Assembly (NCBI RefSeq): GCF_041103235.1
Contig: NZ_JBGCUN010000001.1
Span: 930,001-994,000, forward strand
DNA: 64,000 nt
Direction of reading: 5' to 3'
Origin: Yoonia sp. R2331
Lineage (GTDB): Bacteria; Pseudomonadota; Alphaproteobacteria; Rhodobacterales; Rhodobacteraceae
Each line of letters begins with the position of its first letter. Within the stretch, counting starts at the first letter, position 1. The position numbers and the translations under genes are program-made. Shown here piece after piece: positions 47,332 to 59,472 of the stretch. The notes under the pieces are model-generated. The model did not search any database, had not been told where the DNA came from, and saw nothing but the letters and a program-made list of their open reading frames with translations.

Positions 47332-49503
47332 TTAAAGATCAAAGCGGTCTGCGTTCATGACTTTCGTCCAGGCCGATACGAAATCCCGGACGAATTTTTC
47401 TGCATTCCCGTTTTGCGCATAGACTTCCGCATAGGCGCGGAGGATCGCATTCGAGCCGAAGACCAGATCAACCCGCGTTGCACGCCATTTCCGTTGACCT
47501 GACGATCGGTCCTTGATGTCGTAGTGCCCATCGTCCGCCGGGTGCCAGCTGTATTTCATGTCCGTCAAGACGTTGAAGAAATCAGGAGAGAGAACGCCCA
47601 CACGATCTGTGAAGACGCCGTAATCAGTCCCACCGAAATTCGTACCCAGGACGCGCATCCCGCCGATGAGAACGGTCATTTCCACAGCTGTAAGGCCCAG
47701 CAGTTGCGCGCGGTCCAGAAGCAGTTCTTCGGTGCTTGCAACTGGTGTGTCTGGTGCGAAGTTCCGGAACCCATCCGCGAGGGGCTTGAGAACCTCGAAC
47801 GCTGCAACGTCAGTCATCGCTTCTGTCGCATCGCCGCGACCTGGCGCAAAAGGGACGTCAATCTTGTGACCGGCTGCCGCGATCGCATCTTCGAGGCCGA
47901 CATTCCCAGCCAAGATGATGATGTCAGCAACAGAAGCACCAACCTGTGCAGCAACGGGTTCCAATTTCGCAAGCACCCTGGCCAGCCGCTGAGGTTCGTT
48001 TCCGGCCCAGTCCTTTTGTGGGGGCAACCGCAGGCGTGCGCCATTGGCGCCGCCGCGCTTGTCAGATCCACGGTAGGTTCTGGCACTGTCCCAAGCGGTT
48101 GCGATCAGCGCGCTTCCATTCAGCCCGGTTGCCCGGATAAGGGACTTTGCGGCTGCCACGTCAAAATCGGTCGGACCTGCCGGGACGGGATCTTGCCAGA
48201 TAAACGTTTCATGCGGCACGTCGGGCCCGCGGTAGCGGGTAGGTGGACCCATGTCGCGATGTGTCAATTTGAACCAAGCTTTCGCGAAGGCTTTATCAAA
48301 GGATGCGGGATCTGCACGGAATGCGTCGACAATCGCGCGATAGGCCGGGTCGACCTTGAGCGCCATATCCGCATCCGTCATCATCGGCATCCGCCGGATT
48401 GACGGGTCTTCGACATCGACCGGCATGTGGTCTTCGTTGATGGCAACAGGCTGCCATTGCTGGCCGCCTGCGGGACTTTTTGTCAATTCCCATTCATGGT
48501 TCATGAGCATGTCAAAATAGCCCATGTCCCATTTCGTCGGTTCGGTCGTCCATGCGCCTTCGAGACCGCTGACCATGGTGTCGCGGCCAATGCCACGGCC
48601 TTTGGTGTTCATCCATCCGATGCCCTGAAACTCTGGTCCGGCCTTTTCGGGATCCGGGCTGAGGTTTGCTTCGGACCCTGCGCCGTGGCATTTGCCGATG
48701 GTGTGACCGCCTGCCGTAAGAGCGACTGTTTCGGCATCATTCATGCCCATCCGAGCGAAGGTTTCGCGCATATGGGCTGCGGTGCGGAGCGGGTCGGGGA
48801 CGCCGTTGACGCCTTCGGGGTTCACATAGATCAGGCCCATTTGAACCGCAGCGAGAGGTGCGTCCAGGGTTTCGGCGTGATCCACATCGTCATAGCGGTT
48901 GTCGCTTGCGGCAAGCCATTCGTTTTCGTGGCCCCAATTAATGTCGCTTTCCGGGGCCCAGATATCTTCGCGGCCAAAGGCAAATCCAATGGTCTTTAGC
49001 CCGGCGACTTCGTAAGCAACTGTTCCTGCCAAAACGATAAGGTCGGCCCAGCTGATAGCGTTGCCGTATTTCTGTTTGATCGGCCACAGCAAGCGTCGGC
49101 CTTTATCGGTATTCACGTTGTCCGGCCAGGAATTCAGCGGCGCGAAACGTTGGTTGCCGCTTCCGGCACCGCCGCGTCCGTCGAAAGTGCGGTATGACCC
49201 GGCTGCGTGCCACGCCACCCGCGCAAACATACCAACGTAGCTGCCCCAGTCAGCCGGCCACCAGTCCTGACTGTCCGTCATCAGATCGCGCAAATCTGCC
49301 TTGAGTGTGTCAACGTCCAGAGTTTTGAGAGCTTCATGATAGTCGAAATCGGGATCCATCGGATCCGTCCGCGCGCCATGCTGGTGGAGAATGCCGAGGT
49401 TCAAAGCATTCGGCCACCATCCGGTTGCGGTTTGACCTTGTGCCGTATTGCTTCCGTGCAGCACTGGGCATCCGGTCGGCTGAGCCGGGTTATTTCCATC
49501 CAT
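47332..49503 (-). CDS. katG: Catalase-peroxidase
   Basis: Breaks down hydrogen peroxide with a dual catalase/peroxidase activity; haem enzyme, cytoplasmic. The 723 residues have both KatG domains. Active-site Arg95, Trp98 and His99 are in FARVAWHA, and Tyr226 and Met252 complete the Met-Tyr-Trp crosslink needed for catalase activity. Proximal His267 is in [19 protein letters not shown] precedes the ATG. It is the last gene of the long catabolic operon, 39 bases behind the CoA-transferase subunit gene. Confidence 0.97.
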
Positions 49504-49542
49504 GTTGGGTCTCCTTCGGTCGGCGAAATTCGGGATCTGTTC

Positions 49543-50169
49543 TTATGAAACGATCGTTGCTTCTGTTGCTGCGCGCAGGTCCTCTTCGGTGACGCCGTCG
49601 GCGACTTCGACGATCTGCAAACCACCTGGAACAACGTCCAGAACGCCAAGGTTCGTGACGATCCGGTCAACCACGCCTTTACCCGTCAGCGGCAAGGTGC
49701 ATTCTTTCAGGATTTTTGAGGCCCCGTGTTTGTTGGTGTGATCCATCACAACCACCACGCGGCCAACGCCTGCCACCAAATCCATCGCGCCTCCCATGCC
49801 CTTGATCAGTTTTCCCGGGATCATCCAGTTCGCAATGTCACCGTTTTGCGCGACTTCCATTGCGCCGAGGATCGCCATGGCGATTTTTCCGCCCCGGATC
49901 ATGCCAAAGCTTTGTGCGCTGTCGAAATACGCGGTTTGCGGGAGCTCTGTGATCGTTTGTTTGCCGGCGTTGATCAGATCCGGATCAACCATGTCGTCGG
50001 ACGGGTAGGGCCCCATGCCAAGCATCCCGTTCTCTGATTGGAGAGTGACCTCAATTCCATCAGGGATGAAGTTCGAGACCCGTGTGGGGATGCCGATCCC
50101 GAGGTTTACATACCAACCATCTTGCAGTTCCTGTGCCGCTCGGGCGGCCATTTGATTGCGATCCCACAT
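49543..50169 (-). CDS. 3-oxoacid CoA-transferase, beta subunit
   Basis: A 208-residue family I CoA-transferase subunit B with the catalytic Glu46 in SENGMLGMG and the GIGIPTRV stretch. With the adjacent alpha subunit it moves CoA between succinyl-CoA (or acetyl-CoA) and acetoacetate or another 3-oxoacid. The start overlaps the alpha-subunit stop (TAATG). Confidence 0.94.
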   Translation of the reverse strand: MWDRNQMAARAAQELQDGWYVNLGIGIPTRVSNFIPDGIEVTLQSENGMLGMGPYPSDDMVDPDLINAGKQTITELPQTAYFDSAQSFGMIRGGKIAMAILGAMEVAQNGDIANWMIPGKLIKGMGGAMDLVAGVGRVVVVMDHTNKHGASKILKECTLPLTGKGVVDRIVTNLGVLDVVPGGLQIVEVADGVTEEDLRAATEATIVS

Positions 50170-58278: not shown

Positions 58279-58282
58279 GTGG

Positions 58283-58636
58283 TTACTCCGGTCTCTTGCC
58301 GTTGGGATACGGGATCACGACAAGCATTTTGCAAATATGGTTCGTCTTGTTTTCGATGCGCCGGACTTCACCTGGCGGGATGGTACAACTGTCCATCGCC
58401 GCCAGAATGGTTTCCCGGCCATCAACCTCGACCGTCATTTCCCCTTCGAGAACGACGTAGACTTTTTCAAACGGCGTGCTGTCCGGTCCCGCTCCACCAC
58501 CGGGCAGAAACTGGGAAAAGCCAATCCATTGGTTTTCGGGCCCACCGTCTTCGAACCCTTGAAGCCGAAGGCCCGTGACGCCCCAGTGATTGGGGGCGTC
58601 ATAGGTCGTGGCATCGGCAAACCGTTTGACGTGCAT
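58283..58636 (-). CDS. Cupin domain-containing protein
   Basis: A 117-residue single cupin (PFEKVYVVLEGEMTVEVDG, then MDSCTIPPGEVRRIEN). Some metal-ligand positions of typical cupins are replaced (there is no clear HxH pair), so it may be an isomerase, a sensor or a non-metal cupin. The ATG at 58636 overlaps the cyclase stop codon. Confidence 0.87.
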   Translation of the reverse strand: MHVKRFADATTYDAPNHWGVTGLRLQGFEDGGPENQWIGFSQFLPGGGAGPDSTPFEKVYVVLEGEMTVEVDGRETILAAMDSCTIPPGEVRRIENKTNHICKMLVVIPYPNGKRPE

Positions 58637-59472
58637 CAGAACGTCTCGCCAGCTTCGATGCGGTAGGCCTGTTGTTTGTCTGTCATTGCAACAAGGCGAA
58701 TGATGCAGCCATCCCCCCGGTCCCAATTCCAGGGGAAGAACGCAAACGTCACGCGTTTGCCAGTGACAGAGTCCAAATCGCCACCGACATTTTCAATTCC
58801 AAGAATGCCGTTTGAAAACAATGTGTTGTGGACCGGCTCCCATTCGGGGAAGTCGTCTTTCCAATCCCTTCCGCCGGACCATTCTTTGTATTCCTCTTCC
58901 AGATGGGGCAGGATCGGGCCATTGCGCTGCGGGCCAATTGCCGTTGCCAGCGGATGGTCATTGGCTTGTGTGTCGTGCCCCACAACTTTGACGCCCTTTT
59001 CAACCATCCAATCGGCGGCCGATTGCACCAGCCCGGGGCAGTAGGCAAAGTAGTCACCGTCTTCGTATTGCTTGTGCCAGCCTGTGTTGATGATGAGCAC
59101 GTCGCCTTTGCGGATGGCGTGGCCGCAGGCCTTTTCAAGGTCATCGCCAGTGATGGATTCCCACTTTTTCTTTGGGATCGAGACGACAAGGCCGGACCCA
59201 AAGAAGTGCGGCAGTGGCACCTCATCAATGAATGGTGTGCCCTGAACCACGTGGGCGGGCGCGTCGATATGCGTGGTGACATGCATGGTGGTGGTGATCG
59301 TCTGACTCAGCACACCTGACTTCGCCATGTAGTGCTTCCGCTCAATGGCGACGTCTTTGAAGTAGGGCCAGTTCGGACACTGATAGCCAAACCGGTGGCT
59401 GAGGTTCACAAACTCGAGCCCCATGTCATTTTCTGTGTTTGATTGGAATTCTATTCCGCGAATTTCCACCAT
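58636..59472 (-). CDS. Cyclase family protein (kynurenine formamidase / isatin hydrolase type)
   Basis: A manganese- or zinc-dependent hydrolase with the metal motif HVTTHIDAPAH, a variant of HxGTHxDxPxH. Relatives open cyclic amides or cleave formamides. The protein has no signal peptide. Start uncertain: the ATG at 59472 has GAGG upstream (278 residues), while 59424 gives MGLEFVNLSHRFGYQCPNW, the usual family start (262 residues). It is the first gene of the long catabolic operon and lies opposite iclR. Confidence 0.88.
   Translation of the reverse strand: MVEIRGIEFQSNTENDMGLEFVNLSHRFGYQCPNWPYFKDVAIERKHYMAKSGVLSQTITTTMHVTTHIDAPAHVVQGTPFIDEVPLPHFFGSGLVVSIPKKKWESITGDDLEKACGHAIRKGDVLIINTGWHKQYEDGDYFAYCPGLVQSAADWMVEKGVKVVGHDTQANDHPLATAIGPQRNGPILPHLEEEYKEWSGGRDWKDDFPEWEPVHNTLFSNGILGIENVGGDLDSVTGKRVTFAFFPWNWDRGDGCIIRLVAMTDKQQAYRIEAGETF

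Follow-up and report, generated by a model that had tools for sequence, protein, structure and literature searches.

Organization of the operon

In the 64,000-nucleotide stretch of the Yoonia sp. R2331 genome analysed here (positions 930,001 to 994,000 of contig NZ_JBGCUN010000001.1, called the window below; the genome comprises 8 contigs and 4.03 Mb), twelve tightly packed open reading frames (ORFs) lie on the minus strand between positions 49543 and 59424, next to a divergently transcribed gene for an IclR-family regulator (Table 1). They encode a cyclase-family hydrolase, a small cupin, a short-chain dehydrogenase/reductase (SDR), an enzyme of the 3-hydroxyacyl-CoA dehydrogenase (3HCDH) family, a Liv-type ATP-binding cassette (ABC) importer with its solute-binding protein, a beta-keto acid cleavage enzyme (BKACE), and the two subunits of a 3-oxoacid CoA-transferase (ScoAB). 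Neighbouring genes overlap by 1 to 14 bases or are separated by gaps of 1 to 60 bases. A further gene (47332-49503), which by eye we take to be katG, follows 39 bases downstream of scoB and would extend the row to thirteen genes spanning 47332-59424. Judged from its sequence, this operon very probably serves to import and degrade phloroglucinol (1,3,5-trihydroxybenzene) or some simple precursor from which phloroglucinol is formed.

Library scans were run on nine translated proteins (BKACE, cyclase, 3HCDH, SDR, cupin, Liv-type binding protein, CoA-transferase subunits A and B, and IclR); KatG was outside these scans, and the four Liv permease and ATPase genes were assigned by homology to the Liv genes annotated in two related loci, L117 and L120. 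The first-pass annotation, made from the letters of the window, had let the cyclase gene begin at 59472; the gene is there, but its start is most likely 59424 (MGLEF...), where conservation begins. Terminator-like sites are not more frequent than in shuffled sequence (18 versus 16.5), and a promoter scan returned fewer sites than shuffles did (3 versus 5.0). Of the named relatives found, an uncultured isolate of the Rhodobacteraceae (L008) is the nearest: in it, 14 of the 14 genes compared are 98-100% identical over the matched stretches.

Table 1. Genes and predicted regulatory sites of the operon (window coordinates)
Feature	Position	Strand	Basis
IclR-family regulator, divergent from operon	59692..60447	+	PF01614/PF09339
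Probable IclR operator ACCGCAATGCGGT	59613-59625		by eye and pattern search
Probable IclR operator ATCGCATTGTAGA, weak copy	59592-59604		by eye
Probable IclR operator ACCACATTGCGGT	59570-59582		by eye and pattern search
Cyclase-family hydrolase, proposed dihydrophloroglucinol cyclohydrolase (DPGC)	58636..59424	-	PF04199, 117 bits
Small cupin, core member	58283..58636	-	PF07883
SDR, proposed phloroglucinol reductase (PGR)	57493..58278	-	best PDB match 5g4k/5g4l
3HCDH-family enzyme, proposed (S)-3-hydroxy-5-oxohexanoate dehydrogenase (TfD)	56563..57489	-	PF02737 and PF00725
Liv-type solute-binding protein, twin-arginine signal	55240..56520	-	PF13458, 131 bits
LivG-type ATPase	54451..55179	-	ORF, homology to L117/L120 ABC ATPases; start codon by homology
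LivF-type ATPase	53751..54464	-	ORF, homology to L117/L120 ABC ATPases; start codon by homology
LivH-type permease	52886..53749	-	ORF, homology to L117/L120 permeases; start codon by homology
LivM-type permease	51861..52889	-	ORF, homology to L117/L120 permeases; start codon by homology
BKACE, proposed 3,5-dioxohexanoate (triacetate) cleavage enzyme (TAL)	50916..51857	-	NF053538, 528 bits
3-Oxoacid CoA-transferase subunit A (ScoA), lineage-specific addition	50169..50867	-	TIGR02429, 237 bits (cut-off 128.5)
3-Oxoacid CoA-transferase subunit B (ScoB), lineage-specific addition	49543..50169	-	TIGR02428, 325 bits (cut-off 243.55)

Conservation and regulation

A single genome collection gave 387 relatives of the cyclase; the best 80 of these supplied the related loci, which accordingly all have close cyclases; 12 of the 80, with less than 9 kb after the cyclase start, were dropped, and counts out of 68 refer to the remainder. 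A search for a conserved gene neighbourhood, which the first-pass annotation had proposed, found ten core genes colinear on one strand, in the order cyclase-cupin-SDR-3HCDH-binding protein-LivG-LivF-LivH-LivM-BKACE, in 59 of the 68 loci, and this arrangement is far from chance. Taken singly, the cyclase and cupin genes are present in all 68 loci, SDR and 3HCDH in 67, the binding protein, LivG and LivF in 64, and LivH, LivM and BKACE in 63. ScoA and ScoB are each found in 3 loci and KatG in 1, and because so few loci carry them we place ScoAB and KatG outside the conserved core; the first-pass annotation saw correctly that these genes are there, but they are not core members. KatG, found in 1 of 68 loci, was rejected as a part of the conserved unit.

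Within a sample of the family, the cyclase occurs in 33 of 295 genomes, and in 25 of these 33 a BKACE that passes the NF053538 model lies within 10 kb on the same contig (coordinates compared by eye). Of the other eight cyclase-positive genomes, two (G488 and G302) carry a sulfatase gene after the Liv genes instead, with their BKACEs on other contigs, and one (G315) has cyclases that are merely 46-52% identical. In the remaining five (G560, G449, G429, G389, and G445), the cyclase has low coordinates or sits on a high-numbered contig, which may point to contig ends. Wider samples show the cyclase to be rare, with 3 of 289 for the class and, by profile search, 5 of 299 for the phylum. In Pacificitalea manganoxidans (L117) the cluster sits on plasmid pDY25-C, and the genome G436 carries cyclase and BKACE together twice, on two contigs, one copy having the same coordinates as in pDY25-C. 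A plasmid of Mycobacterium riyadhense (L119, 10408-14739) brings together genes for an SDR, part of a 3HCDH, a cyclase, a cupin, a BKACE of a different kind, and an IclR regulator.

In 74 of the 80 related loci, an IclR gene is found in divergent orientation no more than 500 bases away. The nearest NCBIfam models of the regulator in the window are BhcR and PcaR/PcaU, both below cut-off. The gap between the IclR and cyclase genes contains putative operators (59570..59625) spaced by 22 and 21 bases. Allowing up to 3 mismatches, the motif is present in 63 of 75 IclR-cyclase gaps of relatives and in 4 of 75 shuffled gaps; here the pattern had been derived from the window itself, and as the control each region was shuffled once, by mononucleotides. 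In the window, the pattern with up to 2 mismatches occurs 9 times against 2.86 expected; seven of these nine occurrences lie elsewhere, so that the motif by itself is not enough to identify the promoter. The conserved predicted operators support a single IclR-controlled transcription unit, in which IclR would sense the substrate or an intermediate and govern the operon via two or three palindromic operators. The first-pass proposal of a single IclR-linked catabolic operon is borne out by the spacing, the conserved gene order, and the divergent IclR gene.

Match to the phloroglucinol pathway

In Clostridium scatologenes, phloroglucinol degradation runs through PGR (an SDR), DPGC (a "cyclase"), TfD (an enzyme resembling 3-hydroxyacyl-CoA dehydrogenases), and TAL (a BKACE), with a CoA-transferase and a thiolase (PMC10470551). 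The final six-carbon intermediate of phloroglucinol breakdown is 3,5-dioxohexanoate (triacetate). The cluster has also been reported in marine alpha- and gammaproteobacteria (PMC10470551). The first-pass annotation regarded the pathway in the window as a candidate undescribed one. This view has to be given up: the enzyme set matches that of the published phloroglucinol pathway, the BKACE passes the model for 3,5-dioxohexanoate, and the pathway is best read as a variant of the route published in 2023 for an anaerobic Clostridium. We thus find largely what would place this BKACE with a known pathway whose full gene set is matched, the exceptions being the thiolase, which is missing from the operon, and the clade of the BKACE. 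Like the C. scatologenes cluster, the operon in the window combines the four enzyme families with a CoA-transferase, and it shares the W-x-Y of the cyclase and a BKACE without the amine-binding Glu14. Unlike it, the operon has an IclR regulator and a Liv importer where C. scatologenes has a major-facilitator transporter (PMC10470551), a conserved cupin, and a BKACE of a 310-residue clade with Ile rather than Trp at the Glu14 position; it contains no thiolase, and its host belongs to the Rhodobacteraceae. This host is probably marine; an aerobic and marine habit is suggested by the names of its relatives.

In DPGC of C. scatologenes, Trp20 and Tyr22 replace the substrate residues Ile and Leu of isatin hydrolase (PMC10470551). 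By their W-x-Y spacing, W19-P-Y21 of the cyclase in the window correspond to this pair, and they are kept in 113 of 114 aligned homologues. The one that deviates is a haloarchaeal protein that is not part of such a cluster. Residue counts here and below include near-identical relatives, and sequences with less than 75% coverage were dropped. C. scatologenes residue positions were matched through Acetoanaerobium proteins as a stand-in; the Acetoanaerobium cyclase, aligned with that of the window, also carries WPY. The MHVTTHIDAPAH motif is conserved too, and the profile search with the cyclase reaches kynurenine formamidase and isatin hydrolase. A ring-opening "cyclase" hydrolase, as first annotated, fits with the PF04199 domain and with the signature shared with DPGC.

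For the SDR, a comparison with 638 matched PDB sequences placed 5g4k/5g4l first with 180.8 bits, the next protein reaching 144.7. The SDR and 5g4k are 43% identical and have the segment PTVFRSxLTxWMF in common. 5g4k is reported to be the phloroglucinol reductase of Conradt et al. (2016). The code itself does not occur in the text of PMC10470551. In the 3HCDH-type enzyme, S117, H138, and N189 lie within the motifs SNTS, GTHWWNP, and GNRLQ and by motif are the catalytic Ser, His, and Asn. TfD keeps these three catalytic residues and is without the CoA-binding Lys56 and Asn221 (PMC10470551); in the enzyme of the window, the stretch RRLAVLGPLE (from 223), read without alignment to reference structures, contains no Asn.

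Against a cut-off of 430, the BKACE scores 528 bits with the NCBIfam model NF053538 ("3,5-dioxohexanoate:acetyl-CoA acetone transferase"), and it falls short of the lysine (Kce) and 3-oxoadipate models. The genome holds three further BKACEs, none of which passes NF053538; one of them, at 489 bits against a cut-off of 350, is of the 3-oxoadipate type. Among PDB entries, the BKACE of the operon is most similar to BKACE15 of Paracoccus denitrificans (8rio/8rip/9hnf), which is 57% identical, with E171 and R254 conserved, but belongs to a neighbouring group outside the clade of the cluster BKACEs. 3,5-Dioxohexanoate is among the confirmed in vitro substrates of BKACE15, and the physiological role of this enzyme is stated to be unknown (PMC11961710). 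In the tree, the BKACEs of 17 proteobacterial clusters form one clade (support 97/91), which is adjoined by BKACE15 and two PDB relatives. Cluster BKACEs entered this tree as 12 rows taken from the 80 loci, that of the window, and six more; two cluster rows have less than half of the columns filled, and long branches (Acetoanaerobium, Mycobacterium, and paralogues) make the exact placing unsure. In the clostridial TAL, Trp16 replaces Glu14 of Kce, which binds the amino group of the lysine intermediate (PMC10470551). At this position, fixed via alignment with the TGAW of Acetoanaerobium rather than with Kce itself, the enzyme in the window has Ile18, and its relatives have Ile in 64 of 66 cases, Leu in 1, and Trp in 1. 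The first-pass suggestion to assign the BKACE to a subgroup has a divided outcome, as NF053538 is passed but orthology with the clostridial TAL does not hold. Because the clostridial TAL has Trp here and the Acetoanaerobium and Mycobacterium cluster BKACEs sit outside the clade, we regard the BKACE step as an analogy and not as orthology, and a triacetate-cleaving BKACE seems, from these sequences, to have been recruited more than once.

Several relatives contain additional genes that point to phloroglucinol. PhlG-type enzymes release phloroglucinols, and the Paracoccus cluster L052 has a PF18089 PhlG-type hydrolase inside it (146 bits; cut-off, 22.7); two ORFs of the same sequence cluster are present in L055, which is from another genus. 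In Acetoanaerobium (L116), where cupin, SDR, 3HCDH, cyclase, and BKACE follow in a row, an adjoining PhlG-like protein falls just under the cut-off (22.1 versus 22.7), and a PF18232 chalcone isomerase N-terminal domain (195.6 bits), found 3.5 kb on, fits with flavonoid breakdown. The alphaproteobacterial locus L040, which has no Liv or BKACE genes in its stretch, has a decarboxylase-like gene directly after the 3HCDH gene. In the PDB, its product is most similar to gamma-resorcylate decarboxylase (244 bits, compared with 230 for 5-carboxyvanillate decarboxylase), which fits with a phloroglucinol carboxylate.

Cupin and transport

The cupin is found not only in all 68 loci but also in the clusters of Acetoanaerobium, Novosphingobium, Mycobacterium, and a proteobacterium of another class (L122). 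In an alignment of 24 sequences, H17 is the sole invariant histidine. The usual metal-binding histidines of cupins appear to be absent from its sequence: judged by motif rather than by alignment with a metal cupin, the histidines of the metal motifs have no counterpart here. The best of five structure models has a pLDDT of 87 (range, 56 to 87). Its fold search ranked the Mn cupin TM1459 first and the polyketide cyclase RemF 30th, and no function emerged from this search. The main text of PMC10470551 does not name the cupin (0 matches). Our guess is that it is a tautomerase or an accessory protein.

The first-pass annotation described a complete Liv-type importer with a binding protein exported by the twin-arginine translocation (Tat) system, and both parts agree with our results: the four permease and ATPase genes are homologous to the Liv genes of L117 and L120, and the PF13458 binding protein has SRRRFL near its start, with R10-R11 invariant in 16 of 16 aligned sequences, including that of the window, which is in line with Tat export. 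Its structure model is too poor (pLDDT 64) to suggest a ligand. Of the 68 alphaproteobacterial-type loci, 59 have the Liv genes in full order; L022, L031, and L040 lack them, and in Novosphingobium (L118) a major facilitator superfamily (MFS) gene occupies their place. A gene that we take from its sequence to be symporter-like adjoins the L122 cluster.

Proposed route

From the gene content, order, families, signature residues, and conservation, we infer the following reactions. The Liv importer would take in the ring compound, and the SDR would use NADPH to reduce the keto tautomer of phloroglucinol to dihydrophloroglucinol. The cyclase-family hydrolase would then open the ring in a metal-dependent retro-Claisen reaction, giving (S)-3-hydroxy-5-oxohexanoate. 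This order differs from that of the first-pass annotation, which had let the "cyclase" act first: ring reduction by the SDR probably precedes ring opening by the cyclase. Next, the 3HCDH-type enzyme would oxidise (S)-3-hydroxy-5-oxohexanoate to 3,5-dioxohexanoate, which the BKACE would convert with acetyl-CoA into acetoacetyl-CoA and acetoacetate. The family matches with TfD and TAL are consistent with the earlier idea that the hydroxyacid dehydrogenase supplies a beta-keto acid to the BKACE, and the TIGR02429 and TIGR02428 matches are consistent with a CoA-transferase that takes up the acetoacetate from it. ScoAB would activate this acetoacetate, and a thiolase encoded elsewhere would finish the pathway, with, by our count, a net gain of three acetyl-CoA. 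No step would need oxygen, and one reduction would be offset by one oxidation, possibly with a different cofactor.

Several observations weigh against phloroglucinol as the substrate of this operon. The assignment is built on sequence comparison. There is no thiolase among the twelve operon genes (the rest of the genome was not searched), the BKACE is absent from the stretch in 5 of 68 loci, and the cupin has no place in the published pathway. ScoAB pass their cut-offs, so that a CoA-transferase is present in the cluster, yet they occur in few loci. The NF053538 cut-off is passed in 134 of 295 family genomes whereas the cyclase is found in 33, and because of this the model is wider than one pathway. 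Position 14 of Kce is Trp in the clostridial TAL and Ile in the window. The cluster BKACEs of Acetoanaerobium (37% identical to that of the window, outside the 310-residue clade) and Mycobacterium fall outside the clade of the window's enzyme and score 228 and 181 bits with NF053538. In the Acetoanaerobium SDR, which is only 38% identical to 5g4k, PTIFWTPLT stands where the PGR segment would be. Finally, the PhlG-type, chalcone isomerase, and decarboxylase genes belong to a few relatives and not to the window.

Alternative explanations

It is possible, but unlikely, that the same chemistry acts on another substrate, such as a substituted phloroglucinol (acyl-, carboxy-, or sulfo-, or a phlorotannin unit), another meta-hydroxylated ring, or a cyclic 1,3-diketone, in which case free phloroglucinol would be a mere intermediate or would not be involved. 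Genes for a PhlG-type hydrolase, a gamma-resorcylate-type decarboxylase, a sulfatase, a glutathione S-transferase (GST), and an esterase are inserted in or adjacent to the cluster in some relatives, and the Liv binding protein does not point to a particular ligand, all of which would agree with such a substrate. However, none of these extra genes is inside the operon of the window, and the PhlG-type hydrolase, the decarboxylase, and the sulfatase could each simply lead to phloroglucinol. We consider it very improbable that independently transcribed modules merely lie side by side. ScoAB and KatG are lineage-specific, and the importer is replaced, missing, or accompanied by a symporter-like gene in the loci named above, but the gaps of at most 60 bases, the shared order of ten genes, the lack of an excess of terminator-like sites, and the single operator-bearing divergent promoter region argue for one unit.

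A pathway for a sugar acid or a carnitine-like hydroxy acid, in which the SDR or the 3HCDH-type enzyme would oxidise a 3-hydroxy acid for cleavage by the BKACE, is hardly credible. The oxidative deoxyribonate pathway does pair an SDR with a BKACE giving acetoacetate (PMC6365646), and the 3HCDH family includes carnitine dehydrogenases. Against this, the carnitine dehydrogenase models gave 158.7 and 117.9 bits, with cut-offs of 592 and 414, and on this basis the carnitine pathway was rejected; lysine fermentation through Kce was rejected at 231 bits (cut-off, 382) and with Ile18 at the Glu14 position, and a 3-oxoadipate assignment of the BKACE failed with its model. The deoxyribonate pathway has a lactonase, a glycerate kinase, and MFS transporters where the operon has a cyclase, a 3HCDH-type enzyme, and a Liv importer (PMC6365646). 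Neither a lactonase nor a glycerate kinase is among the operon genes, a weak argument as the glycerate kinase locus number of P. simiae is distant, and the WPY cyclase and the PGR-like SDR fit nowhere in such a pathway.

Possible ecological role

Phloroglucinol is the unit from which polyphenols of plants as well as of brown algae are built. Phlorotannins, which consist of it, are major polyphenols of brown seaweeds (PMC10045267). If phloroglucinol is the substrate, a wider scenario is conceivable, which we offer as a tentative one: in oxic water, marine Rhodobacteraceae may mineralise the phloroglucinol released from the phlorotannins of brown algae, following a route of reduction and hydrolysis that needs no oxygen and has its own importer and IclR switch. 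An in-operon sulfatase would strip sulfate first in some lineages, and the cupin without metal ligands would be a so far overlooked fifth enzyme of the pathway or a protein accessory to it, such as a keto-enol tautomerase supplying reducible phloroglucinol or dihydrophloroglucinol. The BKACE would have been recruited separately in Proteobacteria and in Clostridia and Actinobacteria. In the open-licence literature searched, there is little on who degrades phlorotannin-derived phloroglucinol in oxic seawater and how, and, PMC10470551 aside, the papers listed included no experimental work on this route in the group. If the reading as a phloroglucinol operon is right, the operon could serve as a marker gene set, an orphan cupin would gain a defined pathway, and one BKACE clade would acquire a physiological role; BKACE15, the closest relative that has been studied, is described as lacking a known one. 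The surprise would be moderate, because the general route has been published and PMC10470551 already names marine alphaproteobacteria.

Sulfatases and other neighbouring genes

In 12 of the 80 loci, a gene that clusters with sulfatases lies near the cluster, although that of L064 is merely 27-29% identical to the others. Nine related loci have, near or in the cluster, a distinct sulfatase clade with 66-98% mutual identity and 48-58% identity to the sulfatase of the window. The first ATG of the sulfatase lies between 1 base before the end and 2 bases after the BKACE stop codon in L019, L021, L022, L049, and L051, and 60 bases after it in L025; in L124 and L125 the sulfatase follows LivM, with no BKACE in the stretch. 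The position after the last operon gene suggests a sulfated substrate in those lineages, and sulfated phloroglucinol or phlorotannin as that substrate is an idea only.

The sulfatase of the window (44966-46612, plus strand) was rejected as a part of the operon in this genome. It belongs to another orthologous group than the cluster sulfatases. Its 13 closest full-length matches (at least 73% identity) include 11 in genomes without the cyclase; in the two that are cyclase-positive, G448 and G526, sulfatase and cyclase are on different contigs. Together with a TAXI-type TRAP transporter (40954-44324, minus strand) and a MarR-like gene (44412-44969, plus strand), it likely forms a module adjoining the operon; within this module, the scans covered the DctM domain and the sulfatase. 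Because of the different orthologous group and of these two neighbours, its closeness to the operon is probably incidental.

A GST-like gene is present in L061, L012, L062, L073, L075, and L086, and in all of these except L073 it lies at most 30 bases after the BKACE match. It is conceivable that it removes diaryl ethers or halogens from phlorotannins. Farther along in the window (61008-63132), successive genes encode a small protein rich in cysteine, an ABC ATPase, and a periplasmic binding protein, which we take to resemble part of a metal-chelate or cobalamin uptake system.

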